Virus record (IMG/VR): IMGVR_UViG_3300033148_001312
Coordinates: 2,159-24,948 of that record
Source: a virus
DNA length: 22,790 nucleotides
Direction: 5' to 3' (one strand)
The notes below the pieces were generated by a model, which did not search any database, was not told the origin of the DNA, and saw only the letters and a program-made list of their open reading frames with translations. Made by a program: the position numbers and the translations under genes. This document shows, one piece after another, positions 5,285-20,051 of the stretch. Position 1 is the stretch's first letter. Each line of letters starts with the position of its first letter.

Positions 5285-6393
5285 GGGTTATCTATCATCT
5301 CCCTATCTGCAATCTGATACTGATTAGGGTCACGTACTTCTTGGTAGAACATCTTGACAGCCTCATCTGTAAGCCTGTTCAATAGTGTCTCGCTGTAGAA
5401 TAGTGATAGGTCACGAACATTATCGGTAACATCTATTACTACTTCAGGCTTTCTAATGTAGTCAACACTTACAGCACGACACACAGCACCTTGAGGATGC
5501 ATGAGCATAAAGTTCCTGTGCTGATTGAATCTTGGCTCATCGATACTCGGCTCACCAGACTTTGATATCCTTCGGTCACTCTGTAGATACTTAGCCCAAT
5601 TAACTTCAACCTGCGCTATATCGACTATTGAATCAATTTGAGCTTGGCTTAATGTGACAGGAGTATTGAAGTTAGGAGGGTAAGCTGCTGCGTAAATCTC
5701 ATACTTGAACTCACTTACCTGTCTCACCAAAGCATATCCTACATCTGTAGGTACTGTCTGAAACACAGAGGCGAATATAAAGTCCTTGTCTCTTAGCTTA
5801 GTAGGTCTAAAGAACTCTATTACTCCAGGAGTTCCAGGGTATCCTTTGTAGACAGGAATAGCTTCATCGCTCTCATACATATAAGCCTCTATAGCCAATA
5901 CGTGAAGATAATCTCCAAGCATATTTCTGAATCCTGTTGTCTGAGCAACAGTAACAATGGAGCCGTTATCTGCGTCTGTAATGGCGGTAATAGGCGTTGC
6001 AACATCAACAATTGTAGGAGAAGTTACAGTAACAACCGTAAACGTATCTCCAAGGTTGGGATATCCTGTAGGTCCTTCAACCGTAAACTGATCACCAACT
6101 ATCAAGTTGTGTTCTGCCGAGAACGTAAACACACCAGCAGCAGTTGCGGAAGCAATTGGAACTGGAGTTGTTCTGAATCTGTTGTTGTTGATTACAAGAA
6201 ACTCATCTATGACCATCAACTCAGACAGTTCATCGAACTCCTTCTGAGTATCCATACCACGATACTTGTTCTCAATAATACGTAGGAACGCATTGTCAAA
6301 CGCACGTTGCATCTTTGCATCGCTGACGTAATCCGAGTAGCTGTTATCAATCTTGTCCTCGAATAATTTTTGAAGATCTAATCCTGTGACCAT
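5281..6393 (-). CDS. Large connector-like virion protein with inserted beta domain
   Basis: 370 aa. The N-terminus is helical (residues 1-65, 'LQKLFEDKIDNSYSDYVSDAKMQRAFDNAFLRIIENK'). Residues about 87-135 form a compact beta insert with the pattern 'FSAEHNLIVGD...GYPNLGDTFTVVTV'. The C-terminal part ('VDYIRKPEVVIDVTDNVRDLSLFYSETLLNRLTDEAVKMF') is typical of Bacteroidota phage head-completion/adaptor proteins. The gene lies directly after a terminator and has a -7 element TATCTTTG four bases before its ATG, so it likely starts a new transcription unit for the neck genes. Virion role is well supported by context; the exact ring position is not known. Confidence 0.78.
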   Translation of the reverse strand: MVTGLDLQKLFEDKIDNSYSDYVSDAKMQRAFDNAFLRIIENKYRGMDTQKEFDELSELMVIDEFLVINNNRFRTTPVPIASATAAGVFTFSAEHNLIVGDQFTVEGPTGYPNLGDTFTVVTVTSPTIVDVATPITAITDADNGSIVTVAQTTGFRNMLGDYLHVLAIEAYMYESDEAIPVYKGYPGTPGVIEFFRPTKLRDKDFIFASVFQTVPTDVGYALVRQVSEFKYEIYAAAYPPNFNTPVTLSQAQIDSIVDIAQVEVNWAKYLQSDRRISKSGEPSIDEPRFNQHRNFMLMHPQGAVCRAVSVDYIRKPEVVIDVTDNVRDLSLFYSETLLNRLTDEAVKMFYQEVRDPNQYQIADREMIDNP

Positions 6394-6397
6394 AGAA

Positions 6398-6405
6398 CAA
6401 AGATA
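6398..6405 (-). promoter_or_regulatory. -7 element TATCTTTG, leaderless
   Basis: On the minus strand TATCTTTG matches the Bacteroidota -7 consensus TAnnTTTG exactly and ends four bases before the ATG at 6393. A TTT, not TTG, lies at the expected -33 distance, so the upstream element is weak. It follows directly after a terminator, which supports a new start of transcription here. Confidence 0.55.
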
Positions 6406-6423
6406 CGCAATGTTATGGACACA

Positions 6424-6450
6424 TAAAAAGAAACCCCGACCTTACGGGGT
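6424..6450 (-). terminator. Intrinsic terminator after the 309-aa virion gene
   Basis: Minus-strand hairpin with a 6-bp stem (ACCCCG / CGGGGT, 6433-6450) and 6-base loop, followed by a T-rich run (TTTCTTTTT). It lies about 30 bases after the stop codon of the gene ending at 6480 and before the promoter of the next gene. Confidence 0.8.
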
Positions 6451-6479
6451 CAGGGCTGCTTTAATTGGTTGTCCGATTA

Positions 6480-7409
6480 TTACTCAGACAGCTCTATACC
6501 ATTCTCCTCCTCATAAGCGTGGATTCGTTCAATCGCCTTATCAAGGTCGTTAGGGAACTTACCCTTTAGCTTATATTTCTTGTATAGCTTCATAAAGTGC
6601 GCTCTTTTTTCGGCAGGAGTGATGTCATCTTCCTCGACCTCATTTAGTTCGTTGAAAGCTGTGTCATCTCCACTGTCTGCAAGCGAACGTACAAGGTTAT
6701 CATACATCTGTGGGTTATCCTTGAAGAACAATGCAATGTCATCCTCATCCTTACCGATAAGAACGTCACCGATGTAGAACTTATCTGCATCTTCTGTAAC
6801 AAAGCCAGATACAATTCCCTTGTTAACGTACACCAACATCTCAACCTTCTTGGCTACTGAACTCTTGTTCAACGAACCGAATGTCTCAATGAATCTTGAT
6901 GTGTTAGGCTCTCTAAGAAGTAGACCTCCCTCAATGTCAACAAGTTCAAGCGTGATGTCATCGTCAGACATATCTCTTGGGTCTTGCTTGAAGAAGTACA
7001 TTACATCCTTTCTCTCAGCCTCTGTCATTCCGTAAATGGTTGATACTACACGGTTTACGCTTACAGTCTTGGCTCTCTTCTTCTCTTTGGTAGCCTCAAT
7101 CACTTCGATTGTGAACCTGGCTCCGTCCTTACCTGTTCCGTTGACATCTTCAACCATTGGGTGGTTCATCCAAAAACTGATTTGGTCTTCAACCTCCTCA
7201 ACTGACTCACCGAAAATCTTGCTCTCTGTTGCAAGTTCCCCTGCGAATCGGATGTCTCCTCTGTTGGTAGTTAGGTTTCCAGACTTGACCTCACCGTACT
7301 GATTGAGCGAGATGTTTCTACCCTTCAAGTTGTAAGTTGCAGTAAGCGTTACAGCTTGTTTAATGTGATTTACGCCCTTTGGCTTAATCACCGCAATTTC
7401 TCTTTCCAT
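6480..7409 (-). CDS. Virion-block protein of unknown function
   Basis: 309 aa, starting MEREIAVIKPKGVNHIKQAV with the ATG at 7409. The first half has alternating beta strands ('AVTLTATYNLKGRNISLNQYGEV', 'ARFTIEVIEATKEKKRAKT') and the second half is helical and acidic ('FFKDNPQMYDNLVRSLADSGDD', 'EVEEDDITPAEKRAHFMKLYKKYKLKGK'). It sits alone between two minus-strand terminators (7443-7472 and 6424-6450), so it is probably transcribed as a single gene; an imperfect TATCTTTA lies at 7436-7443. Its place, two genes after the capsid protein, would suit a neck, tail or auxiliary head protein, but I recognise no family motif. Confidence 0.7.
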   Translation of the reverse strand: MEREIAVIKPKGVNHIKQAVTLTATYNLKGRNISLNQYGEVKSGNLTTNRGDIRFAGELATESKIFGESVEEVEDQISFWMNHPMVEDVNGTGKDGARFTIEVIEATKEKKRAKTVSVNRVVSTIYGMTEAERKDVMYFFKQDPRDMSDDDITLELVDIEGGLLLREPNTSRFIETFGSLNKSSVAKKVEMLVYVNKGIVSGFVTEDADKFYIGDVLIGKDEDDIALFFKDNPQMYDNLVRSLADSGDDTAFNELNEVEEDDITPAEKRAHFMKLYKKYKLKGKFPNDLDKAIERIHAYEEENGIELSE

Positions 7410-7442
7410 TTTAAAGTATTAGTTAATTAACAACGTAAAGAT

Positions 7443-7472
7443 AAAAAAAAGAGGTGACAAAACTGCCACCCC
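7443..7472 (-). terminator. Intrinsic terminator downstream of the capsid cluster
   Basis: On the minus strand GGGGTGGC pairs with GTCACCTC (8 bp with G-U wobbles, 6-base loop), followed by eight T residues. It lies about 28 bases after the stop of the gene ending at 7500 and probably ends the transcript that begins upstream of the scaffold gene. Confidence 0.82.
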
Positions 7473-7499
7473 TTTTTAGAATAATCAACTGAATGTTAT

Positions 7500-8273
7500 T
7501 TACACGTTAGAACCCAAAAGTTCAGCAGCAGTGTAAGTACCATCAATTACATCATCAATCACAGCATCAAGAGCAGCCCAACCAGCAGCACCTTCGTCAG
7601 CGTAAACCTTCAAAAGAACAGCTTGATCACTTGTCTGCTCGTTGAATCCTCCGTTGCCTTTAGGCATCATAAGTTCAAAGCAGTACTCACTGTAAGAAAG
7701 ACCAACAACAGGAAGAGCTGCGGCAGATCCAACAGCAGGGAAAGAGTCTACAATACCCTCTGCAAGAAGGTCTGCGCCTCTTCCAACAGGAGCTACAGGA
7801 GCTTGGTTCACAACGATACCTGCAAGAGAAATCTCCTGAGTTGTCAAGTTGAAGTTATCAACTGAAGAAGCTACAAGAGTAAGAGTAGTAGTTCCACCTG
7901 CTGTAACCGCAAGTCTACCAGCATTAACGTGAGCGTTAATTACAGATCTCCATGCGTCACAAACAACGTCAGCAGTAGCAGGAGCGGTATCACCACTCAC
8001 AAAAACGATTTGCTCTGTGATGATTTCGTCATCCATCTCTTGAGTTAGGTAGAAACTGTACTCTGTGTTTGCAGCTAAAGCACCTGGAGTGATGGTATAT
8101 TGACCAGCAGCACCAGCAGCACCAGTAGTCTTAGAAGTAGCCTGAAGCTTTTTCCAAGGAAAGGTGTACTGTACGTCAGCAGCTTTTAGGATTCTACCTA
8201 AACCGTCTACAAAGTCTACAGCAGTAGCTACAGTCTCAGCGGTAGTAAGAATAATATTGATATCTCGATTCAT
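7500..8273 (-). CDS. Ala/Thr-rich beta-structured virion protein
   Basis: 257 aa, directly downstream of the major capsid gene and before a terminator. Composition is Ala, Val, Thr and Gly rich. Residues about 57-145 alternate beta strands with an Ala-rich helix: 'YTITPGALAANTEYSFYLTQ', 'GDTAPATADVVCDAWRSVI', 'AGGTTTLTLVASS'. That strand-helix-strand layout recurs in phage tail-tube, sheath and capsid-decoration proteins. The C-terminus is helical (AALDAVIDDVIDGTYTAAELLG). An abundant virion protein such as a decoration or tail-type protein is likely because it shares the transcript of the major capsid gene; the precise identity is open. Confidence 0.72.
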   Translation of the reverse strand: MNRDINIILTTAETVATAVDFVDGLGRILKAADVQYTFPWKKLQATSKTTGAAGAAGQYTITPGALAANTEYSFYLTQEMDDEIITEQIVFVSGDTAPATADVVCDAWRSVINAHVNAGRLAVTAGGTTTLTLVASSVDNFNLTTQEISLAGIVVNQAPVAPVGRGADLLAEGIVDSFPAVGSAAALPVVGLSYSEYCFELMMPKGNGGFNEQTSDQAVLLKVYADEGAAGWAALDAVIDDVIDGTYTAAELLGSNV

Positions 8274-8299
8274 TTTTTCTAAGTTTTAAGAGTTATAAA

Positions 8300-9667
8300 T
8301 TAAGCTACCAATTCAATCAATCCACTGAACTTACCGATCATGTCGATTCCGTTATCAGCCATGATGTCACATCTGTGAGCATCTACTGAACTTACGATAT
8401 CTACACTGTAATCTGCGAAGTTATCAACAGTTGGTACACCTGCGTCAGCCATACCTTTGATGTAACCTGCGTAGAACTCAGAAGGTCCTCGGTAGATTTT
8501 TTCGATAGCAGGAGCAAGACCTCCACCTTTCACTTCGATTGGATCTAAGTCAAGTGCGAAGCAAGTGTGCTGCTGACGGTATGGGTTGCTAAGTCCAGCA
8601 ACTGAAGTCAACTCTGGGAAGAACTCAGTATCGTTAAGAACTGGAAGCTCTACCATTGCAACTTCAACACCAGCGATAGCGTACATACGTACATCTACAC
8701 CTTTTACTTCTTGACCACCGAATGTGTTCATAGAACCAGCATTCTCAATGTATCCGTCAGTGAAAGTTCTTTGGATGTGCTGCATCATTCCACGACCCAT
8801 GAACAATGTGATAGGAGTAGAACGACTTGCCTTACGGCTCCATACGTTAGCAAGGAAGTTGTCGAACTGAGCCTGAGTCAAAGCAGAAGCAAGTGGAAGG
8901 TACTCACCACCTCTGTTGATGATAGACCATCTTACACCACCGTTCATGTCAGAAAGACCACCTACTTGAGAAGTCCACTGAGCTTGGTTTGAGAATAACA
9001 TCTGCTTCTCCATCTGACGAAGGAATCGCTGTACCATCAAGTCCAACTGAGCATCTCCCCAGAACTTGTCCTTGTAGTAGATACGAGACTTGATGTTCTC
9101 TCTTCGAGAAGCCAAGTAAGTATCACGCTTAACAGCAGAGTAGTTGTAAATCAACTCTGGGAACTCATATAGTGGAGATTTTCCGTCAGAGTAGAAGTTT
9201 GGAGAACTATCTCCCAATACCTTAACGTAAGTTCCAGCAGTTGAGAACGCAGTGTTCATTGCAGCAAGAGTAGACTCAGTTGCCTCCAAAGTAATAGAAC
9301 CTGGAGTAGCTGCGATTACTTTACCTGATACACTGTGGTCAGCAGCAACTACAACGTCACCAACACGGAAAGTGTCAACTGGTGCAGGAGGAGTTCCCTG
9401 TGGCTGAAGTGTAAGAACAAGTGTGTTACCAGCGATTGCACCAGCAGCTACTTGAGCAATAACGTGTCCACGACCCATTACTGATTTCTCGTACTGGTCA
9501 GTATCGAACTGCTTACCGCCTCCGAAAGGCATATTCAAGATGTTAACGATCATTCCGAACTTGTTATAACCTCCTGAAAGGTCATACACGTTACGGAAAT
9601 CGTTACGATCAGACAATGACCGAATAGTCAAGTTGTCTGCAACGTTTAAAGGGCTATTTTGTGCCAT
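8300..9667 (-). CDS. Major capsid protein (HK97-fold, inferred)
   Basis: 455 aa. The start MAQNSPLNVADNLTIRSLSDRNDF and the following 'VNILNMPFGGGKQFDTDQYEKSVMGRGHV' look like major capsid proteins of Bacteroidota phages, and the gene directly follows a scaffold-like gene in the order terminase-portal-scaffold-capsid. Residues about 77-153 form a separate beta-rich insert ('NTLVLTLQPQGTPPAPVDTF', 'GDVVVAADHS', 'GKVIAATPGSITLEA'), as a capsid surface domain would. A P-domain-like helix follows ('QLDLMVQRFLRQMEKQMLFSN'). The leader is A-rich without Shine-Dalgarno, normal for Bacteroidota. The main alternative, another abundant head protein, is unlikely given the gene order. Confidence 0.86.
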   Translation of the reverse strand: MAQNSPLNVADNLTIRSLSDRNDFRNVYDLSGGYNKFGMIVNILNMPFGGGKQFDTDQYEKSVMGRGHVIAQVAAGAIAGNTLVLTLQPQGTPPAPVDTFRVGDVVVAADHSVSGKVIAATPGSITLEATESTLAAMNTAFSTAGTYVKVLGDSSPNFYSDGKSPLYEFPELIYNYSAVKRDTYLASRRENIKSRIYYKDKFWGDAQLDLMVQRFLRQMEKQMLFSNQAQWTSQVGGLSDMNGGVRWSIINRGGEYLPLASALTQAQFDNFLANVWSRKASRSTPITLFMGRGMMQHIQRTFTDGYIENAGSMNTFGGQEVKGVDVRMYAIAGVEVAMVELPVLNDTEFFPELTSVAGLSNPYRQQHTCFALDLDPIEVKGGGLAPAIEKIYRGPSEFYAGYIKGMADAGVPTVDNFADYSVDIVSSVDAHRCDIMADNGIDMIGKFSGLIELVA

Positions 9668-9690
9668 TTTAGATTTCTTTTAAATTTTTA

Positions 9691-10884
9691 TCAAAGAGTT
9701 ATGTTCCCTCCATTAACCCCTCTTCTTCCTGCGGCATCGCCTCTTGCCTTCAAGTATGCGTTGTAATCATTCGTTCTGCCTCCTACTTTTGTGGTTTTTA
9801 AACCCGTTCTCTTCGGTGCAGCACGTTTGATGAACTCTGCCTTCTGACCTTTGACCTTTCCCTGTTGAACTTTATTCTGAAGGACATCCTTCTTGAACAA
9901 ATCCCAGGCGGCAAAGTCAAACATCTTATTGACATTCACAGTACCATCTGCATTAACGAAACCTATCTTACCTGAGACTACGTGATCGTGAATGGCTTTG
10001 GTCATGTCTTCGGTGAGATTTAAACCGTAATAACCCTTACCCTTCATTGAATTAGTAAGTCCCACGAATTGTTCGTGATTTTTTCTTTGTATCTCTTGCA
10101 TTTTCTTCTGCTGCTCAACCGACTGTTCGTTGGTTTCAAACGCAACATTCTTGATTCTATTCTCCTGCTCTGACTTCATCTCTGCTCGCATCTTCCGAAC
10201 TTCAATCTTTCTCTGTGCAGGTGAAAGGTCATCAAACCTATCCATCTCGTACTCAATCTCTTCCTCTGTTAGGTCAAGTTTCTTGATGCCCATTTCATAT
10301 ACCTTCTTGTCAGGCATGGCATCGTAGTCTTTGTCTAACTCAAAAGACTTTAAGTATTCTCTGAAGTTACCGTTACCAGACTGCTTGAACTTTAAGTACC
10401 CATCAATCAATGGGTCGCTTAGTACAGACTCAGCCTGTGCAACCTTTTGCTCCATCTCTTGAAGCTTTTGGCTCTCAGTAACTTTAGGTTCTTCTTTGGC
10501 AGGTTCGTTGTCAAACGAGAATGGGTCTTTCAAGATTGACTCTTGCTTAGACTCCTCTTCCTCTTGGAGTACAATCTCCCAAGCCTCTTCATCGGAAAGT
10601 TCGGAGTTACCCTCACGTTCTTTTACAGCATCGATTTTCTTCAAGTCCTCAACCGCCTGATTCTTTTTATCATCAAGCATCTTTGACTTTAACTCCTCGA
10701 TCTGCTCGGAGAGTTCATCCTCTTCCTTGCCTGGGTTTTCCTCCATGAGCTTTGAGATGATGGATTGCTCCTCATCTTGCTCAAGAGATACCTCTACATC
10801 GTAATTCAAAGAACCCTGTTCCTGTCCTTCTTCCGTGTTCGCATTGTTGTCTTCCTGAACAACATCGTCCTTCATTTCTTCCAT
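9691..10884 (-). CDS. Scaffold-like / head assembly protein
   Basis: 397 aa. The N-terminal 130 residues are extremely acidic (many EE, DE and EEE runs). A coiled-coil-rich middle follows ('ESQKLQEMEQKVAQAESVL', 'QRKIEVRKMRAEMKSEQENR', 'QSVEQQKKMQEIQRKNHEQF'), and the C-terminus is strongly basic ('KGQKAEFIKRAAPKRTGLKTTK', then GRRGVNGG). Acidic coiled-coil protein with a basic capsid-binding tail, encoded just before the capsid gene, is the usual profile of a scaffolding protein. No protease motif was seen, so how the scaffold is removed is not visible here. The gene has its own consensus promoter ending four bases before the ATG, so capsid genes can be expressed separately from terminase and portal. 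Confidence 0.78.
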   Translation of the reverse strand: MEEMKDDVVQEDNNANTEEGQEQGSLNYDVEVSLEQDEEQSIISKLMEENPGKEEDELSEQIEELKSKMLDDKKNQAVEDLKKIDAVKEREGNSELSDEEAWEIVLQEEEESKQESILKDPFSFDNEPAKEEPKVTESQKLQEMEQKVAQAESVLSDPLIDGYLKFKQSGNGNFREYLKSFELDKDYDAMPDKKVYEMGIKKLDLTEEEIEYEMDRFDDLSPAQRKIEVRKMRAEMKSEQENRIKNVAFETNEQSVEQQKKMQEIQRKNHEQFVGLTNSMKGKGYYGLNLTEDMTKAIHDHVVSGKIGFVNADGTVNVNKMFDFAAWDLFKKDVLQNKVQQGKVKGQKAEFIKRAAPKRTGLKTTKVGGRTNDYNAYLKARGDAAGRRGVNGGNITL

Positions 10885-10888
10885 TTTA

Positions 10889-10918
10889 CAAAGTTATATA
10901 TAATTTATTGATTTACAA
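10889..10918 (-). promoter_or_regulatory. Bacteroidota-type promoter for scaffold and capsid genes
   Basis: Minus strand TTG (10916-10918), 19-base spacer, TAACTTTG (10889-10896), then four bases to the ATG at 10884. Both boxes and the spacing fit the TTG / TAnnTTTG consensus. Transcription should begin at or within about two bases of the start codon. Confidence 0.75.
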
Positions 10919-10920
10919 CA

Positions 10921-13206: not shown

Positions 13207-13399
13207 CTGTTATGAATTTTAAAGCGGCTAAAGGAAGTTCAAATACTCTTCCATCTATGTGTCTTATTACTATTGCGTAAGTGTTTAGTCCATTATTTAT
13301 ATCACCCCTGTACCCCACTGCAAGGAACTCACCTGTTTTATCGTTCCCATCTCTTCCTACCCACCTTACGCTTCTTCCTTTGGCGTTCTTGTGTTCCAT
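13178..13399 (-). CDS. Small SH3-like beta protein between terminase and portal
   Basis: 73 aa. The only ATG in frame is at 13399, inside the 3' end of the terminase gene (34-base overlap), and the stop lies inside the start of the portal gene (29-base overlap). The sequence reads as a small beta barrel: 'SVRWVGRDGNDKTGEFLAVGY', 'NTYAIVIRHIDGRVFELPLAALKFI'. Without this ORF there would be a 159-base gap between terminase and portal in a tightly packed block. No family recognised; a terminase- or portal-associated factor is only a positional guess. Confidence 0.68.
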   Translation of the reverse strand: MEHKNAKGRSVRWVGRDGNDKTGEFLAVGYRGDINNGLNTYAIVIRHIDGRVFELPLAALKFITDDTGQQPQS

Positions 13400-15300
13400 A
13401 TTCCTATACCTGTTTTTGCAGGAAACTCTTCTCCAACTTCAAATATCGGAATTTTCTTCCACTTTGTTACCCTTCTACCTGATTCATCGGTAGTTACATA
13501 ACTAACCTCCTTGTACTTTACAGACATCTTTTTGTTGCTCTTCTTGTACTCATCTCTGTCGTACAGTTCACAGGCAACCAACGCATCTAAAAGGTCGGTG
13601 TTGCTAACGTGGAAGTCTGGTAGTTGATTGATTATCTCCAAGAACCATATCCTGTCTGCGTGATTTCTAAGGTACTCGAAGAATAGATTGTATATCGTGT
13701 CCCTGTTCCACCTATCCTTGTGGAATCCCTTTGCAGCCTTCCTGTCAAATGACTTGGCTCCTGTGATTATTGGTTGGTTTGCTATGTATGCCCAGGTTCC
13801 GTGTTGCCTGTACTGATCCATCAAAACCCTACCCTCGTTACGCTCGATCATGTTCTTACAGTCGTTGTAGTAACGCTGTAGCATCATAGTCTCTTGGTAT
13901 ATCGTAATAGGGTCGTTTGTTCTTCGTTGATAGAACGCAACGTACTCTTGTGTGCTTGGACGCTTTACTATGGTGGAGTGTACGGAACGCTTACCACTGC
14001 TCAACGCTTTTTTAGTATCCATACTGTCCGTGTCTACCATAGGGATAGGGTCAGTTCCAGCTCTGTAATCTTCGCCTGTTACAGGGTGTTCAAGTATCGT
14101 GTAATTGCCTTTGGTGTTAGCTATGGCTACAACCCTCCCTCCCTGCTCAACAAGGTCGTATGTGTTTACAGGTCTTGGTGACTCTACTATGACTTTTTTC
14201 TGTGCGTTTATCTTTGGTAATATGTCTTCAGGAATAATACCTACATTATTCATCTCAAAGATGTCATCGATAGATAGAGGGTATGACTTTACGAAACCTA
14301 TGTAGTCACGCTTATCGTCAGACCTATCAAGATATTCTCTACGCTTCTCTACCCACTCTTTTGCGCCATCCTGATCAGACCATCCGTTCGGACAGAAGTC
14401 GTAGAACTTGCCTGTCTGGTGTCCGTTCTCATCGAACTCAGGCGCACGACTGATACCCATTGTTCCAGGGATAAATACAGTCCTAACATTCAGAGCTTCG
14501 GCTTCCTTCCACATCATCTCTGCCTCCTTGATACCCTCTTCCGACACGATGCCAGCAGAACCACCGAACACTACAGGCGCAATCTTTTCAAAGTCATCCA
14601 TCAGACAAGCCTGTATGGACTGACGTACCTCTGATGCGTAGTCATGCAGGAATAACTCATCGATAAATGCGTGTGCCGCACGTTCCGATTCAAAGTTGGC
14701 TGCATCCTTACGACTATCGCTTGTCTGTCTTGCGAGGATGTTTGAGAAGTTACCAGTGGTCATACCCTCGTTGTCCTTAATGTCTATGGTCATGTAGCCT
14801 GTAAGTCTTTGAGACTTCTTCTCAGGCTTTACCCACTCATCGAACTTGTCGTATGCTACGGCTACCTTTTCGTTGAATAGCTTTTCTGTTTTACTTCTGT
14901 TATTTGATGTCAGGAGCGATGTCGAACCTGGGCTTGTCATAGCCTTCCATAGCGACACTCCTGCCCCAAACAAAGCAGACAGTCCTATACCCCTACGCTT
15001 GTAGATACACAGATCCTGTCCAAGTCTTGTGGCTTCGTAGTATTCATCGATAACCCACTCGTCAACATCTCTCCACCAAGGGTGTATCAGTTGACCTCTC
15101 GGCTGTTTTATCTTTATCTGAGTTAGATAGAAGTAGTGTAGACCCTTTAGCCCTGCGTGTCCTTCCACCCATCTTTCTTGTTCCTGTAACCACCACTTGG
15201 CTTCTTCAGCCTTTGTCATCTTTGGCTTGCCCTCCCACACGAACTTCGGTGGCTTTGGGTTTCCGTTGATGATTATTTCAGGACCCTTCCCTTTGGTCAT
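13366..15300 (-). CDS. terL: Terminase large subunit (ATPase + RNase H-like nuclease)
   Basis: 644 aa, the DNA-packaging motor that binds the portal, translocates DNA with its ATPase and cuts with its nuclease. Visible motifs: a Walker A-like loop KRRGIGLSA (residues 101-109), which lacks the usual Lys before Ser; Walker B 'AAHAFIDELF' with D214-E215; a coupling segment 'VVFGGSAG' (243-250). In the C-terminal nuclease, a first acidic residue lies in 'AGTDP' (D417) and the last in 'NTDLLDAL' (D569/D572), with 'VAFYQRRTND' between as a core strand. The start MTKGKGPEII at 15300 is the first gene of the minus block. A -7-like TATTTTTG at 15319-15326 may promote it, but no TTG lies at the right distance. 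No small-subunit gene is apparent in the window. Confidence 0.92.
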   Translation of the reverse strand: MTKGKGPEIIINGNPKPPKFVWEGKPKMTKAEEAKWWLQEQERWVEGHAGLKGLHYFYLTQIKIKQPRGQLIHPWWRDVDEWVIDEYYEATRLGQDLCIYKRRGIGLSALFGAGVSLWKAMTSPGSTSLLTSNNRSKTEKLFNEKVAVAYDKFDEWVKPEKKSQRLTGYMTIDIKDNEGMTTGNFSNILARQTSDSRKDAANFESERAAHAFIDELFLHDYASEVRQSIQACLMDDFEKIAPVVFGGSAGIVSEEGIKEAEMMWKEAEALNVRTVFIPGTMGISRAPEFDENGHQTGKFYDFCPNGWSDQDGAKEWVEKRREYLDRSDDKRDYIGFVKSYPLSIDDIFEMNNVGIIPEDILPKINAQKKVIVESPRPVNTYDLVEQGGRVVAIANTKGNYTILEHPVTGEDYRAGTDPIPMVDTDSMDTKKALSSGKRSVHSTIVKRPSTQEYVAFYQRRTNDPITIYQETMMLQRYYNDCKNMIERNEGRVLMDQYRQHGTWAYIANQPIITGAKSFDRKAAKGFHKDRWNRDTIYNLFFEYLRNHADRIWFLEIINQLPDFHVSNTDLLDALVACELYDRDEYKKSNKKMSVKYKEVSYVTTDESGRRVTKWKKIPIFEVGEEFPAKTGIGIWNTRTPKEEA

Positions 15301-15374
15301 TAAGATTTTGCTTTGTTACAAAAATAGTTATTTGATTTGACATTATGATTTTATACATTGCCAAAAATTTAGAT

Positions 15375-15545
15375 ATGACTTACAGTTACAAGTGCCAAGG
15401 AAAGTGTAAGATGGTTCAAGACCGTGTTCACGGAATGAACGAGAATCCTGTATTTATGTGCTGCGGAAAGCAGATGAAGAAGTTCTTCGGAACCCCACCG
15501 ATAGGTATTCACGGTGCTAACACTGGCAACAGAAAGGGTACGTAA
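15375..15545 (+). CDS. FmdB-like zinc-ribbon protein
   Basis: 56 aa from ATG 15375. An ATG at 15345 would add ten residues, but FmdB-family proteins usually begin 'M-x-x-Y-x-Y-x-C', which fits MTYSYKC here. Cysteines sit as C-x3-C (CQGKC) and a CC pair in 'FMCCGKQMKKFFGTPP', forming a putative single zinc ribbon; the usual CxxC spacing is altered. The tail 'GIHGANTGNRKGT' is flexible and basic. Such small zinc ribbons are common phage passengers with no firm function. It is divergent from the terminase gene and is followed by a strong terminator at 15599. Confidence 0.72.
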   Translation: MTYSYKCQGKCKMVQDRVHGMNENPVFMCCGKQMKKFFGTPPIGIHGANTGNRKGT

Positions 15546-15563
15546 ATGCTTTGTTATTTTTAC

Positions 15564-15571
15564 TATCTTTG
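15564..15571 (+). promoter_or_regulatory. Orphan -7 element TATCTTTG just before a terminator
   Basis: An exact TAnnTTTG match lies 28 bases before the terminator stem at 15599. The nearest TTG is 10 bases upstream, too close for a consensus -33 element, so this is a weak call. If active, it would produce a transcript of only about 50-60 bases, pyrimidine-rich, ending at the terminator. Confidence 0.3.
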
Positions 15572-15598
15572 TCCTGTTCCTTTCCTTTCTCCTTCCTT

Positions 15599-15631
15599 GG
15601 GGTAGTGCTTTCGAGTACTGCCCCTTTTTTT
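15599..15631 (+). terminator. Strong intrinsic terminator with TTCG tetraloop
   Basis: GGGGTAGTGCT (15599-15609) pairs with AGTACTGCCCC (15614-15624) through 11 bp including two G-U wobbles, closed by a TTCG tetraloop, and is followed by seven T. It ends the FmdB-like transcript and insulates the phosphoesterase cassette. Confidence 0.9.
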
Positions 15632-15645
15632 ATTGACAAAAGTAT

Positions 15646-15653
15646 TATCTTAG
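15646..15653 (+). promoter_or_regulatory. -7-like element TATCTTAG before the phosphoesterase gene
   Basis: TATCTTAG differs from TAnnTTTG at one base and ends four bases before the ATG at 15658, the same spacing as other promoters in this window. It lies directly after a terminator, so a promoter is needed here. No TTG sits 17-23 bases upstream. Confidence 0.45.
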
Positions 15654-15657
15654 CGGC

Positions 15658-16752
15658 ATGGCAAACAAAAGAATGAGACTGTCTCCAGAGGAGATAGATT
15701 TGATAAACGAACACAGAGGCTCAAGCGTTACAAACATCAACAGTAACACAGCCCTTGACCTCCACCTCGCAGAGCGTGGAATAGAAAAAGAAGACGTTGT
15801 ATCTGTCAAGCATTGGCAGACATCAAGTGGTGAACTAAGGTTCTCTGTAGTCACCAAAGAAGATAATCAAGTAAGCACCAAGATTCTTGAAAATACATTT
15901 GACGATATACTTGAGGATATCAAGCAGTGGTCACCTGTTTTCAAGAAGATGGAAAGAGTAACATCGGAAGACCCACATTGCTTGGTTGTAGACCCTGCTG
16001 ACATACACGTTGGCAAGTTGGCTTCAATCAGTGAGACAGGTCAATCCTACGATATGCAGAAGGCAGTGCGTCAAGTAGATTGGGCTATCGATGGAATACT
16101 CTCTAAGGCTTCTGGGTTCAGTATCGACAAGATATTCTTTGTCATTGGCAACGATGTTCTTCACGTAGACACCCCAAGAAGAACCACCACAAGCGGAACT
16201 CCCCAAGACACAAGTGGAATGTGGCACGAGGCTTTCCTTGAGGCTAAGACGATGTATGTAAGAGCTATTGAGAAGATGCTTCCAGTGGCAGATGTACACG
16301 TTATATTCAACCCCTCCAATCACGATTATATGTCAGGTTGGATGCTGGCTCAGACCTTAGAGGCTTACTACAGATTTCATCCAAACGTCACGTTCGATGT
16401 TAGTATCGCTCATCGTAAGTACACTTCCTACGGAGTAAATCTTATTGGAACCAACCACGGAGATGGAGCAAAGCTTGATAGTCTACCTTTAATCATGGCG
16501 CAGGAAGCACCTGACCTTTGGGTGAGCTGCCCTATGAGATATATCTACTGCCATCACATACATCACAAGCAGACACATAAGTTTCTGTCTGGAAAAGATT
16601 TTGTAGGCGTTACAGTGGAATATTTAAGAACCCCGAGTCCTGGAGACTCTTGGCACAGTAAAAATGGCTACATAGGGGCTAAGAAGGCTGTAGAGGCGTT
16701 TGTACACAGTAAGAGACACGGACAGGTAGCACGTATAACTCACAACCTATGA
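15658..16752 (+). CDS. Calcineurin-like metallophosphoesterase
   Basis: 364 aa. The two-metal phosphoesterase motifs appear in order: 'DPADIHVGK' (D112, D115, H117), 'IGNDVLHVD' (N165-D166, in place of GD), 'NPSNHDY' (N221-H222-D223), 'GTNHGDGAK' (H267, D269) and 'YCHHIHHK' (299-303, in place of GHxH). This gives a complete set of metal ligands like those of SbcD/Mre11 and related phosphoesterases. The N-terminal 100 residues ('RLSPEEIDLINEHR', 'SVKHWQTSSGELRFSVV') look like a DNA-binding or recruitment module. Similar proteins occur in phages of Bacteroidota; substrates may be DNA or nucleotides. It heads a three-gene plus-strand cassette, and its TGA overlaps the next ATG. Confidence 0.87.
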   Translation: MANKRMRLSPEEIDLINEHRGSSVTNINSNTALDLHLAERGIEKEDVVSVKHWQTSSGELRFSVVTKEDNQVSTKILENTFDDILEDIKQWSPVFKKMERVTSEDPHCLVVDPADIHVGKLASISETGQSYDMQKAVRQVDWAIDGILSKASGFSIDKIFFVIGNDVLHVDTPRRTTTSGTPQDTSGMWHEAFLEAKTMYVRAIEKMLPVADVHVIFNPSNHDYMSGWMLAQTLEAYYRFHPNVTFDVSIAHRKYTSYGVNLIGTNHGDGAKLDSLPLIMAQEAPDLWVSCPMRYIYCHHIHHKQTHKFLSGKDFVGVTVEYLRTPSPGDSWHSKNGYIGAKKAVEAFVHSKRHGQVARITHNL

Positions 16753-16868
16753 TGTCAAGGGAAACGAGGAGACTCGTTAACAATTCACTTATGATTCTTA
16801 TCCTTATCTTTGCCTCAGCCGCTATTTGGCTGTTAACCCTCTATATGGCAGGAATAATATGGAAATAA
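16749..16868 (+). CDS. 39-aa single-pass membrane protein
   Basis: ATG at 16749 overlaps the phosphoesterase stop (ATGATG with an internal TGA). The product has a basic N-terminus (MMSRETRRLVNN) and one hydrophobic segment, about residues 14-37 (SLMILILIFASAAIWLL...), ending GIIWK, so it should be a small inner-membrane protein with N-terminus inside. The coupled start and the next gene's ATG inside its last codons support a real gene. A holin-like or anchoring role is conceivable but not shown by sequence. Confidence 0.62.
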   Translation: MMSRETRRLVNNSLMILILIFASAAIWLLTLYMAGIIWK

Positions 16869-17032
16869 AAATCGACCCTAAGAAAAAGAAGATCGTAATC
16901 AAGTACGATATTACGGAAGAATCAAAGAAGATCCTTTCTCAGGCTCAATCTCTTGCTGAGTCTCTTCCTGAGTATCTTGTGAAGATTCTCCCATTCTCAA
17001 AGAATAAGAAAGATAAAGGAAGTCAATCCTAA
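16859..17032 (+). CDS. 57-aa lysine-rich charged protein
   Basis: I chose the ATG at 16859 (MEIKIDPKKKKIVIKYDITEE); a TTG at 16826 would extend it but lies deep in the previous gene. The N-terminus is a basic beta strand pair, followed by a helix 'SKKILSQAQSLAESLPEYLVKIL' and a basic tail. It overlaps the membrane-protein gene by 10 bases, so it is probably co-expressed with it. Its last 122 bases overlap a convergent minus-strand gene, an unusually long antisense overlap. No family recognised. Confidence 0.55.
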   Translation: MEIKIDPKKKKIVIKYDITEESKKILSQAQSLAESLPEYLVKILPFSKNKKDKGSQS

Positions 17033-17255
17033 TATCTTCCCCCGTCTTTATCATTACGATTCCATTAACGCAGTCTTCAGCGGCTTCGTGCTGAGATACC
17101 CTTTCCCACATATTCTTTATTACACGTTTTAAGTCAGCTATAGACGGTGTTACACCGCCCCAATAGGCTTTTATGCTCTTATTTGACCTAATAATGTGCT
17201 TTACGTGCGAATAATCTATTGATTCAATGAAAGCTTGTGCTATATTTGTGTCCAT
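16911..17255 (-). CDS. 114-aa orphan, convergent with the preceding gene
   Basis: Starts MDTNIAQAFIESIDYSHVKHI at ATG 17255. Residues 1-80 look like a folded small protein ('KAYWGGVTPSIADLKRVIKNMWERV', 'GIVMIKTGEDIRIDFLYLSY'), reminiscent of hypothetical proteins in Bacteroidota phages. The last 35 residues are Gln/Glu/Ser-rich and lie antisense to the plus-strand gene, so the tail may be a recent extension. A near-consensus -7 (TAATATTG) ends five bases before the ATG. Its ATG and the ATG of the divergent gene overlap in the same CATG. Function unknown. Confidence 0.65.
   Translation of the reverse strand: MDTNIAQAFIESIDYSHVKHIIRSNKSIKAYWGGVTPSIADLKRVIKNMWERVSQHEAAEDCVNGIVMIKTGEDIRIDFLYLSYSLRMGESSQDTQEETQQEIEPEKGSSLILP
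17219..17248 (+). promoter_or_regulatory. Consensus promoter for the 72-aa plus-strand gene
   Basis: TTG (17219-17221), 19-base spacer, TATATTTG (17241-17248), then five bases to ATG 17254. Full match to the Bacteroidota consensus. The promoter lies entirely inside the start of the minus-strand gene, and it decides the start at 17254 over an ATG at 17227. Confidence 0.75.
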
Positions 17256-17472
17256 GATTGCAATATTACAAAAAAGTTTCCTGTGGATGAACCCAGGTAC
17301 TGTATTTAATTTAAAGGCTCACGAACAACGTGCAGATATTGAAGTATTTGTATGTGAAGAGCCTGACGATGAAGGAAAGGAGTTCTGGCTCTCTAAAGGG
17401 TTTATCCTCGGAGAGTTTGAAGATGGCTACAAGCCGTTATGCTGGACTCAAGACCTATTCCTCGTCATCTGA
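17254..17472 (+). CDS. 72-aa orphan under its own promoter
   Basis: Starts MIAILQKSFLWMNPGTVFNL; the promoter octamer five bases upstream supports this ATG, not the in-frame ATG at 17227. A later ATG (17287, MNPGTVF) is possible. The body alternates strands ('DIEVFVCEEPDDEGKEFWLSKGFIL') and is acidic, ending 'CWTQDLFLVI'. It looks like a small soluble alpha/beta protein. The end overlaps the convergent minus-strand gene by 18 bases. Family not recognised. Confidence 0.6.
   Translation: MIAILQKSFLWMNPGTVFNLKAHEQRADIEVFVCEEPDDEGKEFWLSKGFILGEFEDGYKPLCWTQDLFLVI
17261..17268 (-). promoter_or_regulatory. Near-consensus -7 element for the 114-aa gene
   Basis: TAATATTG on the minus strand (one mismatch to TAnnTTTG) ends five bases before the ATG at 17255. 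A TTC sits 20 bases upstream instead of TTG, so it is probably a weak promoter. It mirrors the plus-strand promoter at 17219-17248. Confidence 0.35.
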
Positions 17473-17661
17473 TACAGTCTTAGGCTTTTCAATCCACCAA
17501 ACAGCATCAGGCTCCTTTACAGGTCTTCCTGATGTCTTTCTGTACACTGAATTGTCAGAGCCTAAGAACCCATCAAAGTAACGCTTACCGTCACTCCATA
17601 CACAGTTTTTGTGTACGTCTGGTCTGTTCCAAAACACAATATTCCAAGACTTATTATTCAT
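17455..17661 (-). CDS. 68-aa orphan
   Basis: MNNKSWNIVFWNRPDVHKNC at ATG 17661. Trp-rich with two 'W...' strand segments ('CVWSDGKRYFDGFLGSDNSVY', 'AVWWIEKPKT') and an acidic end. It is downstream of a TTG-N18-TAACTTAG promoter that overlaps the end of the HNH gene, leaving a short untranslated leader, unlike its leaderless neighbours. The 3' end overlaps the convergent plus-strand gene. No function suggested. Confidence 0.58.
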   Translation of the reverse strand: MNNKSWNIVFWNRPDVHKNCVWSDGKRYFDGFLGSDNSVYRKTSGRPVKEPDAVWWIEKPKTVSDDEE

Positions 17662-17678
17662 GGCTGTGATTTATTCTG

Positions 17679-17707
17679 CTAAGTTACTGAAAATTAGGCA
17701 ATTACAA
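17679..17707 (-). promoter_or_regulatory. Promoter for the 68-aa gene
   Basis: Minus strand TTG (17705-17707), 18-base spacer, TAACTTAG (17679-17686, one mismatch to TAnnTTTG). The TTG overlaps the stop codon region of the HNH gene. The predicted leader to the ATG at 17661 is about 14 bases. Confidence 0.5.
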
Positions 17708-18109
17708 AAGACTATGCTTCAGTAGCTCTATCAGTCTCTCGTTGGCAGGGTAAATCTTCATAGACTTCTTATCTCCGAACTCCCACTTCTGATGGCACTC
17801 CAGGCATAAAATGTTGATGTTGTCCTTATTGTGTCTAAGTTTTGGTTGAGAACCCTTAGACAAAATGTGTGAGAACATATAGCGTTCCCAGTTTTTACCT
17901 AAATCCTTGTCGCACTCCTCGCAGTAGTGGGGTCTTTCTGACCAAAGCTCCTCGTAGAACTTAGTATCAAGGTCGATTTTATCCTTCGCCTTCTTAGACG
18001 GACCCAGCTTCTTGTATGATTTGGACGCACAGGGCTTACATCTTCCTTTACTCCAAATGTAGTCTTCCTTGCCACACTCCTTACAGGTCTTCTTCTTTCT
18101 TGGTATCAT
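17702..18109 (-). CDS. HNH endonuclease with N-terminal zinc finger (NinG-like?)
   Basis: 135 aa. N-terminal treble-clef/zinc ribbon: CKEC at residues 9-12 and CKPC after 'WSKGR'. A basic linker follows ('SYKKLGPSKKAKDK'), then the HNH core: 'HYCEECDKDLG', 'FSHILSKGSQPKLRHNKDNI', 'NILCLECHQKWE'. Together these give two CxxC pairs, the catalytic-type His in SHIL and a final His. HNH proteins of this build in phages include NinG-type recombination factors and packaging-associated nucleases; I cannot decide between these and a free-standing homing enzyme. It follows a terminator and has a -7-like TATATTTA four bases before its ATG, so it can be expressed alone. Confidence 0.8.
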   Translation of the reverse strand: MIPRKKKTCKECGKEDYIWSKGRCKPCASKSYKKLGPSKKAKDKIDLDTKFYEELWSERPHYCEECDKDLGKNWERYMFSHILSKGSQPKLRHNKDNINILCLECHQKWEFGDKKSMKIYPANERLIELLKHSLL

Positions 18110-18113
18110 ACAG

Positions 18114-18121
18114 TAAATATA
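18114..18121 (-). promoter_or_regulatory. -7-like element TATATTTA before the HNH gene
   Basis: One mismatch to TAnnTTTG, ending four bases before the ATG at 18109. The nearest TTG is 16 bases upstream and lies within the terminator hairpin, so the -33 side is uncertain. Confidence 0.4.
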
Positions 18122-18150
18122 AAAAGAAAACCCCCGCCAAGGGGCGAGGG
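18122..18150 (-). terminator. Strong intrinsic terminator, GC-rich stem
   Basis: Minus-strand CCCTCGCC (18143-18150) pairs with GGCGGGGG (18131-18138) through 8 bp with one U-G wobble and a CCTT loop, followed by TTTTCTTTT. It ends the unit of the two small genes upstream and any RNA started at 18205-18234. Confidence 0.88.
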
Positions 18151-18200
18151 CTTCCTAAACAGCAATGAAAACAAAAACAAAAGCAAAGAACTTTTGAGAG
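18122..18200 (-). ncRNA. Candidate small RNA between a promoter and a terminator
   Basis: A consensus promoter (TTG-N19-TAAATTTG, 18205-18234) sits at the very end of the gene stopping at 18218 and is followed, after about 75 bases with no ORF of useful size on this strand, by a strong terminator. The predicted RNA starts near 18198-18201, is U-rich (runs of TTTTG and TTTTTG) and ends in an 8-bp GC hairpin. It could be a regulatory small RNA or a leader with an attenuator in front of the HNH gene. The 5' end is an estimate from promoter geometry; no covariation evidence is available. Confidence 0.4.
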
Positions 18201-18204
18201 TGAG

Positions 18205-18234
18205 CAAATTTAGTAATTCAGTTGAGAAACACAA
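18205..18234 (-). promoter_or_regulatory. Consensus promoter for the candidate small RNA
   Basis: Minus strand TTG (18232-18234), 19-base spacer, TAAATTTG (18205-18212), an exact match to the Bacteroidota consensus and ideal spacing. No start codon follows within reach on this strand before the terminator at 18122-18150. Confidence 0.65.
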
Positions 18235-18427
18235 AATAAAGCTTGATTAATCTCTCTAATTCTACTATCCCCTGCTCGGTAGTGGCAGCGAACTGCATAT
18301 TATCATCGTAGAGCTTTACAAAGCCAAAGTCGTGCAGGAACATTATCTCCTCGTGATGCTCGTGATCCCAAACATCCTTACCGAACATAAGTTCCTTCAG
18401 TAGGCTCATTTTTAGCTCATCCTTCAT
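18218..18427 (-). CDS. 69-aa orphan, winged-helix-like
   Basis: MKDELKMSLLKELMFGKDVW at ATG 18427, overlapping the end of the upstream gene by 11 bases. The layout helix ('LKMSLLKELMFGKDV'), helix ('HEEIMFLHDFGFVKLYDDNMQF'), strand and helix ('TTEQGIVELERLIKLYF') resembles a small winged-helix fold in which 'GFVKL...FAATTEQGIVEL' would be the wing, as in small phage regulators; this is only a visual impression. It forms a two-gene unit with the upstream gene under one promoter. Confidence 0.6.
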   Translation of the reverse strand: MKDELKMSLLKELMFGKDVWDHEHHEEIMFLHDFGFVKLYDDNMQFAATTEQGIVELERLIKLYFVFLN

Positions 18428-18662
18428 CTCCCAGGTCGTAGTTCTTGTATCTTATGTCAAACTTCCTGTTCTGCATCTTCTCTACGAATTTTCTTCTCGC
18501 CTCGGCAGGATCGGTGTCTTTGCTAACGTAAATGGTCGTGTTCCTGTCGATTACTACACGCTGTAGGTCGTTAAGGTCTGGAGACATCATCTCAGACACT
18601 TTTAGAGCCTTGTTACGCAATTCCTTCAGCTCTTCATTTCTTACTGCACCCTCTTTTTGCAT
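18417..18662 (-). CDS. 81-aa charged orphan
   Basis: MQKEGAVRNEELKELRNKAL at ATG 18662. A helical N-terminus rich in Glu/Lys, a short strand 'RVVIDRNTTIYVSKDTD' and a helix 'PAEARRKFVEKMQNRKF'. A TTG-N20-TAACTTTA promoter ends five bases before the ATG, supporting this start. It is first gene of a two-gene minus unit ended by the terminator at 18122-18150. No family recognised. Confidence 0.6.
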   Translation of the reverse strand: MQKEGAVRNEELKELRNKALKVSEMMSPDLNDLQRVVIDRNTTIYVSKDTDPAEARRKFVEKMQNRKFDIRYKNYDLGDEG

Positions 18663-18667
18663 ACTTC

Positions 18668-18698
18668 TAAAGTTAGTGGTTTAAAATTGTTTTTTCAA
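18668..18698 (-). promoter_or_regulatory. Promoter for the 81-aa/69-aa gene pair
   Basis: Minus strand TTG (18696-18698), 20-base spacer, TAACTTTA (18668-18675, one mismatch to TAnnTTTG), five bases before ATG 18662. Confidence 0.6.
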
Positions 18699-18751
18699 AT
18701 AGGGTCGCAATGTAGAAACTATTCCTAAATTAGCAAGCAAATAATTATCAA

Positions 18752-19219
18752 ATGGATATAAGAAAAGCTAAACCAACAGAAGGGTATCAGATAGAGAGCC
18801 TGGTGCAGATATGCGCTGAACAGTCTGGTATGATGATGATAGACGCTGTAGACGCTCACGGCACTATATCTAAGTCTGTTTTATCGCCTCATTGCCACGT
18901 TTATGTTGCGATTATAGACGATTCGATAGTAGGTGTCATAATAGGCATACAAGGTGCAATGTTCTCCAACCTACACAACATGGAGGTGATGATGTGCGTA
19001 AACCCGACTGACTCAAGGATGGGCGTAGGTTCTATGCTAATGGAACACTTTCTACTGGAACACGGATGGAGAAATGTGTATGCGGAGGTGGTAAGCGACA
19101 ACGAGCCTATCATACATTTACTTCTAAAACATAACTACAAGCTTGTATGCTCACTACCTAAGTTCGTGAACACAAGAAGAGGATTCAGAGACAAAATGAT
19201 ATTTACATACAATGGATAA
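18752..19219 (+). CDS. GNAT-family N-acetyltransferase
   Basis: 155 aa, the normal length for a single GNAT domain. The fold is readable: the beta1-alpha1 region 'MDIRKAKPTEGYQIESLVQICAEQ', central strands 'HVYVAIIDDSIVGVIIGIQG' and 'NMEVMMCVNP', then the acetyl-CoA pyrophosphate loop 'SRMGVGSMLMEHF' (R89-x-x-G-x-G style) and 'NVYAEVVSDNEPIIHLLLKHNYKLV' with N117 in the usual place. The acceptor substrate is unknown; phage GNATs can modify host or virion proteins or small molecules. It heads a two-gene plus-strand cassette. A weak TAAATTAG at 18726-18733 may be its -7 element, but no TTG is at the right distance. Confidence 0.87.
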   Translation: MDIRKAKPTEGYQIESLVQICAEQSGMMMIDAVDAHGTISKSVLSPHCHVYVAIIDDSIVGVIIGIQGAMFSNLHNMEVMMCVNPTDSRMGVGSMLMEHFLLEHGWRNVYAEVVSDNEPIIHLLLKHNYKLVCSLPKFVNTRRGFRDKMIFTYNG

Positions 19220-19436
19220 ACCAAAGAACTTCAAGGAACTGAAGAAGAGACTTCAGCCATTCGTCAACATGAATAACCAAATAAGGTTAAACAAAGAGTC
19301 TACAATAACCAATGTTGGTTATATGATAAGCACTCACGTTGAAATGCTTGAGGCTAACCCTGGAAACAGGACGTTTATGCCCTACTACGACAGGCTTATA
19401 GTGTTGCTAACACTCCTTGAGGCGGGGTGGGAATAG
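19212..19436 (+). CDS. 74-aa helical orphan following the acetyltransferase
   Basis: ATG at 19212 overlaps the acetyltransferase stop by 8 bases (ATGGATAA), so it is likely coupled. The protein is helical: 'NFKELKKRLQPFVNMNNQIRL', 'TNVGYMISTHVEMLEANP', 'YYDRLIVLLTLLEAGWE'. A small helical protein paired with a GNAT could be an accessory or regulator, though type II toxin-antitoxin pairs normally have a ribbon-helix-helix antitoxin upstream, which is not what is seen. Its end overlaps the convergent minus-strand gene by 41 bases. Confidence 0.65.
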   Translation: MDKPKNFKELKKRLQPFVNMNNQIRLNKESTITNVGYMISTHVEMLEANPGNRTFMPYYDRLIVLLTLLEAGWE

Positions 19437-19782
19437 TAAATCGCTCAGGATCTATCTTCTTACATCTCTCAAGTATCAGTACAGACACCTTCTTGAATGC
19501 CATTCTCTCGGCAGGTGTAGTCTCAGTACCTATCTCGGTGTTGAGTCCAGCATCCAGCTCAAGTAGAATGTCTACCGCAGCCTTGTGTGGTGACTTCGTT
19601 CCTGACGTATCCAAAGCCCTCTTCAGATACTTAGCAGTATCAAGAACTTCTTCGTATGCGTGTTGAAGCCATTCTTCCTTGGAGTAGTCTTCCCTATCTA
19701 CGGTTACACCGTACTCCTGCTTTCCTTTGATGTCTGAGGATACAAGGTCCTCGAATATTCGCTTACTCGTGTTGCTTTCCAT
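19396..19782 (-). CDS. MazG-superfamily-like nucleotide pyrophosphohydrolase
   Basis: 128 aa from ATG 19782. The frame is open further upstream to 19872, but the promoter TATATTTG four bases before 19782 and the loss of sensible sequence upstream fix this start. Residues 19-57 carry the phage signature 'KGKQEYGVTVDR' then 'WLQHAYEEVLDTAKYLKRAL', with the acidic EExxD (E44, E45, D48) that binds metal in all-alpha NTP pyrophosphatases. Such enzymes hydrolyse (d)NTPs and can shape nucleotide pools during infection. The C-terminal half ('AAVDILLELDAGLNTEIGTE', 'AFKKVSVLILERCKKIDPERF') is a helical extension of unknown role. Confidence 0.75.
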   Translation of the reverse strand: MESNTSKRIFEDLVSSDIKGKQEYGVTVDREDYSKEEWLQHAYEEVLDTAKYLKRALDTSGTKSPHKAAVDILLELDAGLNTEIGTETTPAERMAFKKVSVLILERCKKIDPERFTIPTPPQGVLATL

Positions 19783-19786
19783 TTTC

Positions 19787-19818
19787 CAAATATAAGGGTT
19801 ATCTTTGTTATATGGCAA
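19787..19818 (-). promoter_or_regulatory. Promoter for the MazG-like gene
   Basis: Minus strand TTG (19816-19818, inside the start of the divergent gene), 21-base spacer, exact TATATTTG (19787-19794), four bases before ATG 19782. Confidence 0.7.
19800..19807 (+). promoter_or_regulatory. -7 element for the basic-protein gene
   Basis: Exact TATCTTTG on the plus strand, four bases before ATG 19812. The nearest TTG is 25 bases upstream, outside the usual range. It lies five bases from the opposing -7 element, so the two promoters must compete. Confidence 0.55.
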
Positions 19819-20051
19819 AGCGTAACTACAAAAAAGAGTACAAGAAAAAACGTGCTGCACGTAACAAGGCAAGACGCAAAGCCGTAAAGAAGGGTACTGT
19901 CAAGAAGGGTGACAAGAACGATATGTCACACACAAAGAATGGGGTAGTAAAAAAGCCCCGATCCGTAAACCGAGGCTCTAAAAAAGATATGCCTGGCGAT
20001 AAACGTGCCAGGGGTAAGGGTCAAAAGAAACGTCAGCCTAAGAAAAAGTAG
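19812..20051 (+). CDS. Highly basic 79-aa protein
   Basis: Over 40% Lys/Arg, almost no hydrophobic residues: 'MAKRNYKKEYKKKRAARNKA', then 'SHTKNGVVKKPRSVNRGSKKDMPGDKRARG'. Proteins ending with this 'NRGSKKDMPGDKRARG'-type segment are, to my knowledge, widespread among unrelated phages; their role is not established, but nucleic-acid binding is the obvious reading. The promoter TATCTTTG four bases upstream fixes the start. The 3' end overlaps the convergent resolvase gene by 14 bases, and a minus-strand terminator lies inside its coding sequence. Confidence 0.75.
   Translation: MAKRNYKKEYKKKRAARNKARRKAVKKGTVKKGDKNDMSHTKNGVVKKPRSVNRGSKKDMPGDKRARGKGQKKRQPKKK
19949..19977 (-). terminator. Antisense terminator inside the basic-protein gene
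   Basis: On the minus strand AGCCTCG (19971-19977) pairs with CGGGGCT (19954-19960) through 7 bp with one U-G wobble and a 10-base loop, followed by TTTTTT. A second perfect 6-bp hairpin (CCTGGC/GCCAGG, 19992-20012) lies just before it. Positioned 60 bases after the resolvase stop, it probably ends the right-hand minus operon. Confidence 0.68.

Follow-up and report, generated by a model that had tools for sequence, protein, structure and literature searches.

In the window analysed here, a 22,790-base stretch of the 24,948-base viral record IMGVR_UViG_3300033148_001312, nine genes begin with an ATG placed only four or five bases after the octamer TAnnTTTG. We consider it very probable (roughly 0.87) that these octamers belong to promoters used by the primary sigma factor (sigma-ABfr type) of a Bacteroidota host and that they give leaderless or near-leaderless mRNAs. 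The nine starts had been listed in an earlier note on this DNA, and all of their positions check out, with five exact elements and four that carry one mismatch. A TTG 19-21 nt upstream had been reported at four starts and is indeed there, near -33, at 10884 (19), 17254 (19), 18662 (20) and 19782 (21), and thus at only 4/9 starts of the window; this and the four mismatched elements weigh against the promoter reading. The putative promoter elements and predicted terminators are as follows.

6391-6405, minus strand: exact -7 element TATCTTTG (6405-6398), 4-nt gap, ATG 6393; heads a multi-gene run
6432-6457, minus strand: intrinsic terminator immediately before the 6393 promoter; counterparts in G014, G003, G006, G007 and G016
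10882-10896, minus strand: exact -7 element TAACTTTG, 4-nt gap, ATG 10884, TTG 19 nt upstream; first in a run of three genes
15564-15631, plus strand: promoter-terminator unit lacking an ORF, with TATCTTTG, a CU-rich stretch, a hairpin and a T-run
15599-15624, plus strand: intrinsic terminator immediately before the 15658 promoter; paired stem changes
15646-15660, plus strand: -7 element TATCTTAG (one mismatch), 4-nt gap, ATG 15658; exonuclease-family gene
17241-17256, plus strand: exact -7 element TATATTTG, 5-nt gap, ATG 17254; inside an opposite-strand gene
17253-17268, minus strand: -7 element TAATATTG (one mismatch), 5-nt gap, ATG 17255; CATG in common with 17254
18107-18121, minus strand: -7 element TATATTTA (one mismatch), fused with a terminator T-tract, 4-nt gap, ATG 18109
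18125-18156, minus strand: intrinsic terminator, stem ending 15 nt before ATG 18109
18660-18675, minus strand: -7 element TAACTTTA (one mismatch), 5-nt gap, ATG 18662, TTG 20 nt upstream
19780-19794, minus strand: exact -7 element TATATTTG, 4-nt gap, ATG 19782, TTG 21 nt upstream
19800-19814, plus strand: exact -7 element TATCTTTG, 4-nt gap, ATG 19812; 29 bp from the divergent gene 19782

The gene at 15658-16752 matches phrog_704, a DNA repair exonuclease family, and the gene at 18109 is HNH-type. A small basic protein is encoded at 19812-20051 (+), and the gene that occupies this place in L042 and L013 is HNH-like by weak PHROG matches. A tenth start that nearly matches the geometry is at 15345 (+), where TTGATTTG stands five bases before the ATG of a small protein containing cysteine. 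Terminase relatives at 82-92% identity comprise 17 viral contigs, the longest of 64 kb. In the phage collection, a near-match search gave no relative and the terminase gave one weak match only; no relatives were recovered by tblastn with capsid and portal or by a terminase search of genome_contigs, and the portal gene matches a phage portal family.

A comparison of the motif with shuffled sequence had been proposed in advance, and both the window and its relatives stand well above the shuffles. With genes called by a simple codon-usage script, the exact motif ends four or five bases before the start of 4/31 window genes (shuffle mean 0.056, max 1 of 500), and forms with at most one mismatch do so at 8/31 (mean 0.68, max 4); the caller put the 17254 start later, so that the exact case there is absent from the window count. 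Among 566 genes of the related contigs, which are kin to one another and therefore do not yield independent counts, 55 carry the exact motif (0.67 in shuffles) and 104 a form within one mismatch (11 in shuffles), and the signal is still clear despite kinship when one gene is taken per cluster (7/207 exact, 0.22 expected). Counts that make no use of annotation gave 22 exact motifs for the window, and an ATG follows 4 of these after a four-base gap (0.37 expected); they gave 458 for the relatives, with 56 at a gap of four and 29 at a gap of five (8.8 expected). The distance profile peaks sharply at 4-5, with few cases at 6-13, and the exact motif followed by four bases and an ATG (N4) has 58 matches, or about 141 per Mb, across the 18 records of related viruses, the reversed control having 3. 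Chance in an AT-rich genome, aided by choosing starts by eye, could draw on the two free positions of the motif and on the commonness of one-mismatch forms (165 on one strand, 148 on the other), but it is effectively ruled out by the shuffles, the annotation-free counts, the reversed control and conservation in relatives.

That conservation, which the earlier note had named as a further check, concerns both the element and its spacing: across relatives the gap length is fixed and the gap letters vary. The exact motif at a gap of four is found in 14/14 contigs each for 19782 and 19812, in 12/12 relatives for 10884 and in 7/7 for 6393, where the gaps read ttct, ctat, ttgt and ttca. All 10 orthologues of 15658 are within one mismatch at the same gap, with differing mismatches, while 18662 has the geometry in 11/14 orthologues, 17255 keeps its spacing in 12/12, and the fusion of element and T-tract at 18109 recurs in G006, G007 and G017. 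In some relatives the 19782 and 19812 proteins fall to 36-49% identity and both spacings are still 4, with the element-to-element distance varying among relatives. Spacing is also kept at two genes of the next-closest group (L151/L085, L152). In distant homologues of the exonuclease (L163, L164, L182, L203, L221), TAnnTTTG lies three bases before an upstream ATG. We also considered that the motif might be a property of particular genes, and rejected this because the homologues of 19782 in distant phages are mostly in operons without it; the motif follows position.

Where the motif occurs within gene order bears on what it does. It stands four or five bases before 42/50 divergent genes with gaps of at most 40, and before only 6/219 operon-internal genes. 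It thus marks the heads of transcription units and, because it is nearly absent from operon-internal genes, appears to be a promoter rather than a ribosome site. At 106 leaderless-type starts, G at the two nn positions has frequencies of 0.01 and 0.02, and no Shine-Dalgarno-like word is seen; overall, such words are missing or no more frequent than by chance. TTG is over-represented at a spacer of 19, with 4.76 of 22 clusters (0-1.6 at other spacers). Upstream of internal genes, positions -12/-11 and -7 are rich in A. An element that works in RNA, binding ribosomes or enhancing translation just before the start codon while transcription starts further upstream, would account for the fixed distance to the ATG, and an unusual signal is conceivable in a host group without Shine-Dalgarno sequences (PMC6847099). 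However, operon-internal genes also need translation signals, and their near lack of the motif led us to reject a ribosome-binding element; the TTG 19 bp upstream and the missing G at nn are promoter traits, and three of the starts have a terminator stem ending 15-33 nt ahead of them, all of which makes the RNA-level explanation very unlikely.

Of the four terminator-like sites that a terminator scan ranked highest, three end shortly before 18109, 15658 and 6393, at stem-to-ATG distances of 15, 33 and 33 nt, and their counterparts are conserved. The mRNAs that contain these three ATGs must therefore begin within the short gap, barring read-through. Further, the N-terminal residues are conserved from Met1 and at 6/9 starts the next 24 codons or more contain no second Met, and the first ATG must therefore be in the mRNA. 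It could still be that the promoters are real and that the leader has a few nucleotides, or that some genes lose part of their first ATG and begin translation at a later codon. This alternative would fit the somewhat variable distance from element to start in F. johnsoniae (PMC6847099), the gap of three in some of the distant exonuclease homologues and the nearness of the next Met at 10884 (codon 4), 15658 (codon 6) and 17254 (codon 12). We regard it as highly improbable, given that the sharp peak at 4-5 fits a start on the ATG and that conserved N-termini are combined, at most starts, with the lack of a nearby alternative Met.

Leaderless or near-leaderless mRNAs from sigma-ABfr-type promoters are also the reading to which the pair at 17254 (+) and 17255 (-) points. 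In 14/14 contigs, TATATTTG-N5-ATG on one strand is matched by an ATG on the opposite strand with CATG in common, and each promoter lies inside the coding sequence of the other gene. Synonymous sites are invariant in codons 3-14 of the 17255 gene, which the promoter of the other gene overlies (11/11, compared with 25/80 downstream, p 1e-5), and in codons 3-8 of the 17254 gene (6/6, compared with 10/49, p 3e-4); for the other window genes the same test of early codons gave fractions of 0-0.5 and no comparable constraint. The pair might even form a mutually exclusive switch, in which polymerase bound at either promoter shuts out the other and occupancy alone picks the gene, but this we consider doubtful.

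The earlier note had also held that leaderless starts serve single-gene cassettes, which stands in part: 17254, 17255, 18109, 19782 and 19812 look single, whereas the other four head larger units. These are the three-gene structural run at 10884, the run at 6393, a two-gene unit at 18662 and the 15658 gene with a small overlapping ORF behind it. Leadered spacing is kept at the terminase gene, 15300, with an exact motif 18 nt upstream, and the phage, judged by its spacings, uses both the leaderless-type arrangement and the leadered one (the terminase and some others).

The sigma-ABfr promoters of F. johnsoniae, F. psychrophilum and B. thetaiotaomicron (TTTG / TAnnTTTG) have the same -7 sequence as the phage elements, and the likeness extends to avoidance of G at nn, a TTG about 19 bp upstream in some cases and a start 4-5 nt downstream. 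In F. johnsoniae, G is avoided at nn and transcription starts 4-5 nt after the -7 element (PMC6847099), so that leaders of 0-1 nt should be expected from the same element in the phage. The lack of a Shine-Dalgarno signal and the A-rich positions before internal genes likewise agree with the description of that species (PMC6847099), and together these traits suggest a Bacteroidota host. No phage-encoded bS21 was found in 12 records. Spacing, comparative genomics, terminators, synonymous constraint and the F. johnsoniae distance together strongly support the original proposal of a sigma-ABfr-type promoter with its start at or next to the ATG. The host primary sigma factor would recognise the -7 element, transcription would begin on the A of the ATG or one base before it, and ribosomes would initiate on the 5'-terminal AUG without a ribosome-binding site; we infer that leaderless translation of this kind takes place in the phage. 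The gain would be compactness, since a promoter could directly follow a terminator and divergent genes could lie 29 bp apart or have a CATG in common, and at such close divergent pairs polymerase would presumably occupy one promoter at a time.

The rarity of leaderless mRNAs in the Bacteroidota measured so far counts against the leaderless reading (PMC9723704, PMC7366714): 5.5% are leaderless in F. psychrophilum (PMC9723704), about 3.7% have leaders shorter than 10 nt in B. thetaiotaomicron (PMC7366714), and in F. johnsoniae 87% of leaders exceed 10 nt (PMC6847099). Host mRNAs are thus mostly leadered, whereas in the phage leaderless spacing is the commonest among exact elements. Leaderless genes of lambda, Actinobacteria and Deinococcus-Thermus resemble those of the phage in that a promoter element stands immediately before the start codon and leaves no space for a leader (PMC3160421). 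The same survey found leaderless genes in 1/37 Bacteroidetes/Chlorobi genomes (2.4% of that genome's genes) and sought only Pribnow-like boxes; the phage element is of the Bacteroidota type (PMC3160421). We rejected a general host habit on the basis of ten Flavobacteriaceae genomes (36.5 Mb), in which N4 shows little excess (950 matches, 26 per Mb, vs 809 in the reversed control; 914 vs 691 at N20), and leaderless-type spacing appears to be a trait of the phage lineage. Isolated cases of the same spacing, a few starts per phage, occur in Polaribacter P12002L, Nonlabens P12024L, Flavobacterium 6H and snusmum9-1, Cellulophaga phi14:2, crAss001 and B40-8. P12002L has four such starts; in the other cultured Bacteroidota phages enrichment is much weaker, and the capsid and portal genes of the cultured phages are unrelated to those of this one. 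The literature searched contained no paper on leaderless transcripts of Bacteroidota phages.

The ORF-less unit at 15564-15631 is a candidate small RNA, with a predicted transcript of about 55 nt that ends just upstream of the 15658 promoter. It is present in 13/15 contigs searched, runs opposite to the exonuclease gene in two of them, G010 and G009, and has 4 pairs of its hairpin stem changed on both sides among relatives. In a scan of the collection it turned up in this phage group alone, and it has no Rfam match. The CU-rich unit has short CU words in common with the end of 16S rRNA, which may be chance, and a search for its targets among phage start regions did no better than shuffled tails. 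A second promoter-terminator unit at 18212-18118 (-), of about 85 nt (TAAATTTG, a U-rich stretch and a terminator), ends at the leaderless-type promoter of 18109, and similar units occur in G006, G007 and G017.

Bacteroidota ribosomes ignore Shine-Dalgarno sequences (PMC9976891), and start-codon choice in this group is incompletely understood; a phage lineage with frequent leaderless starts would offer natural test mRNAs. TAnnTTTG-N4/5-ATG may serve as a simple signature by which to search uncultured Bacteroidota phages for promoters and true starts, and the arrangement would allow divergent genes to be packed without intervening space.
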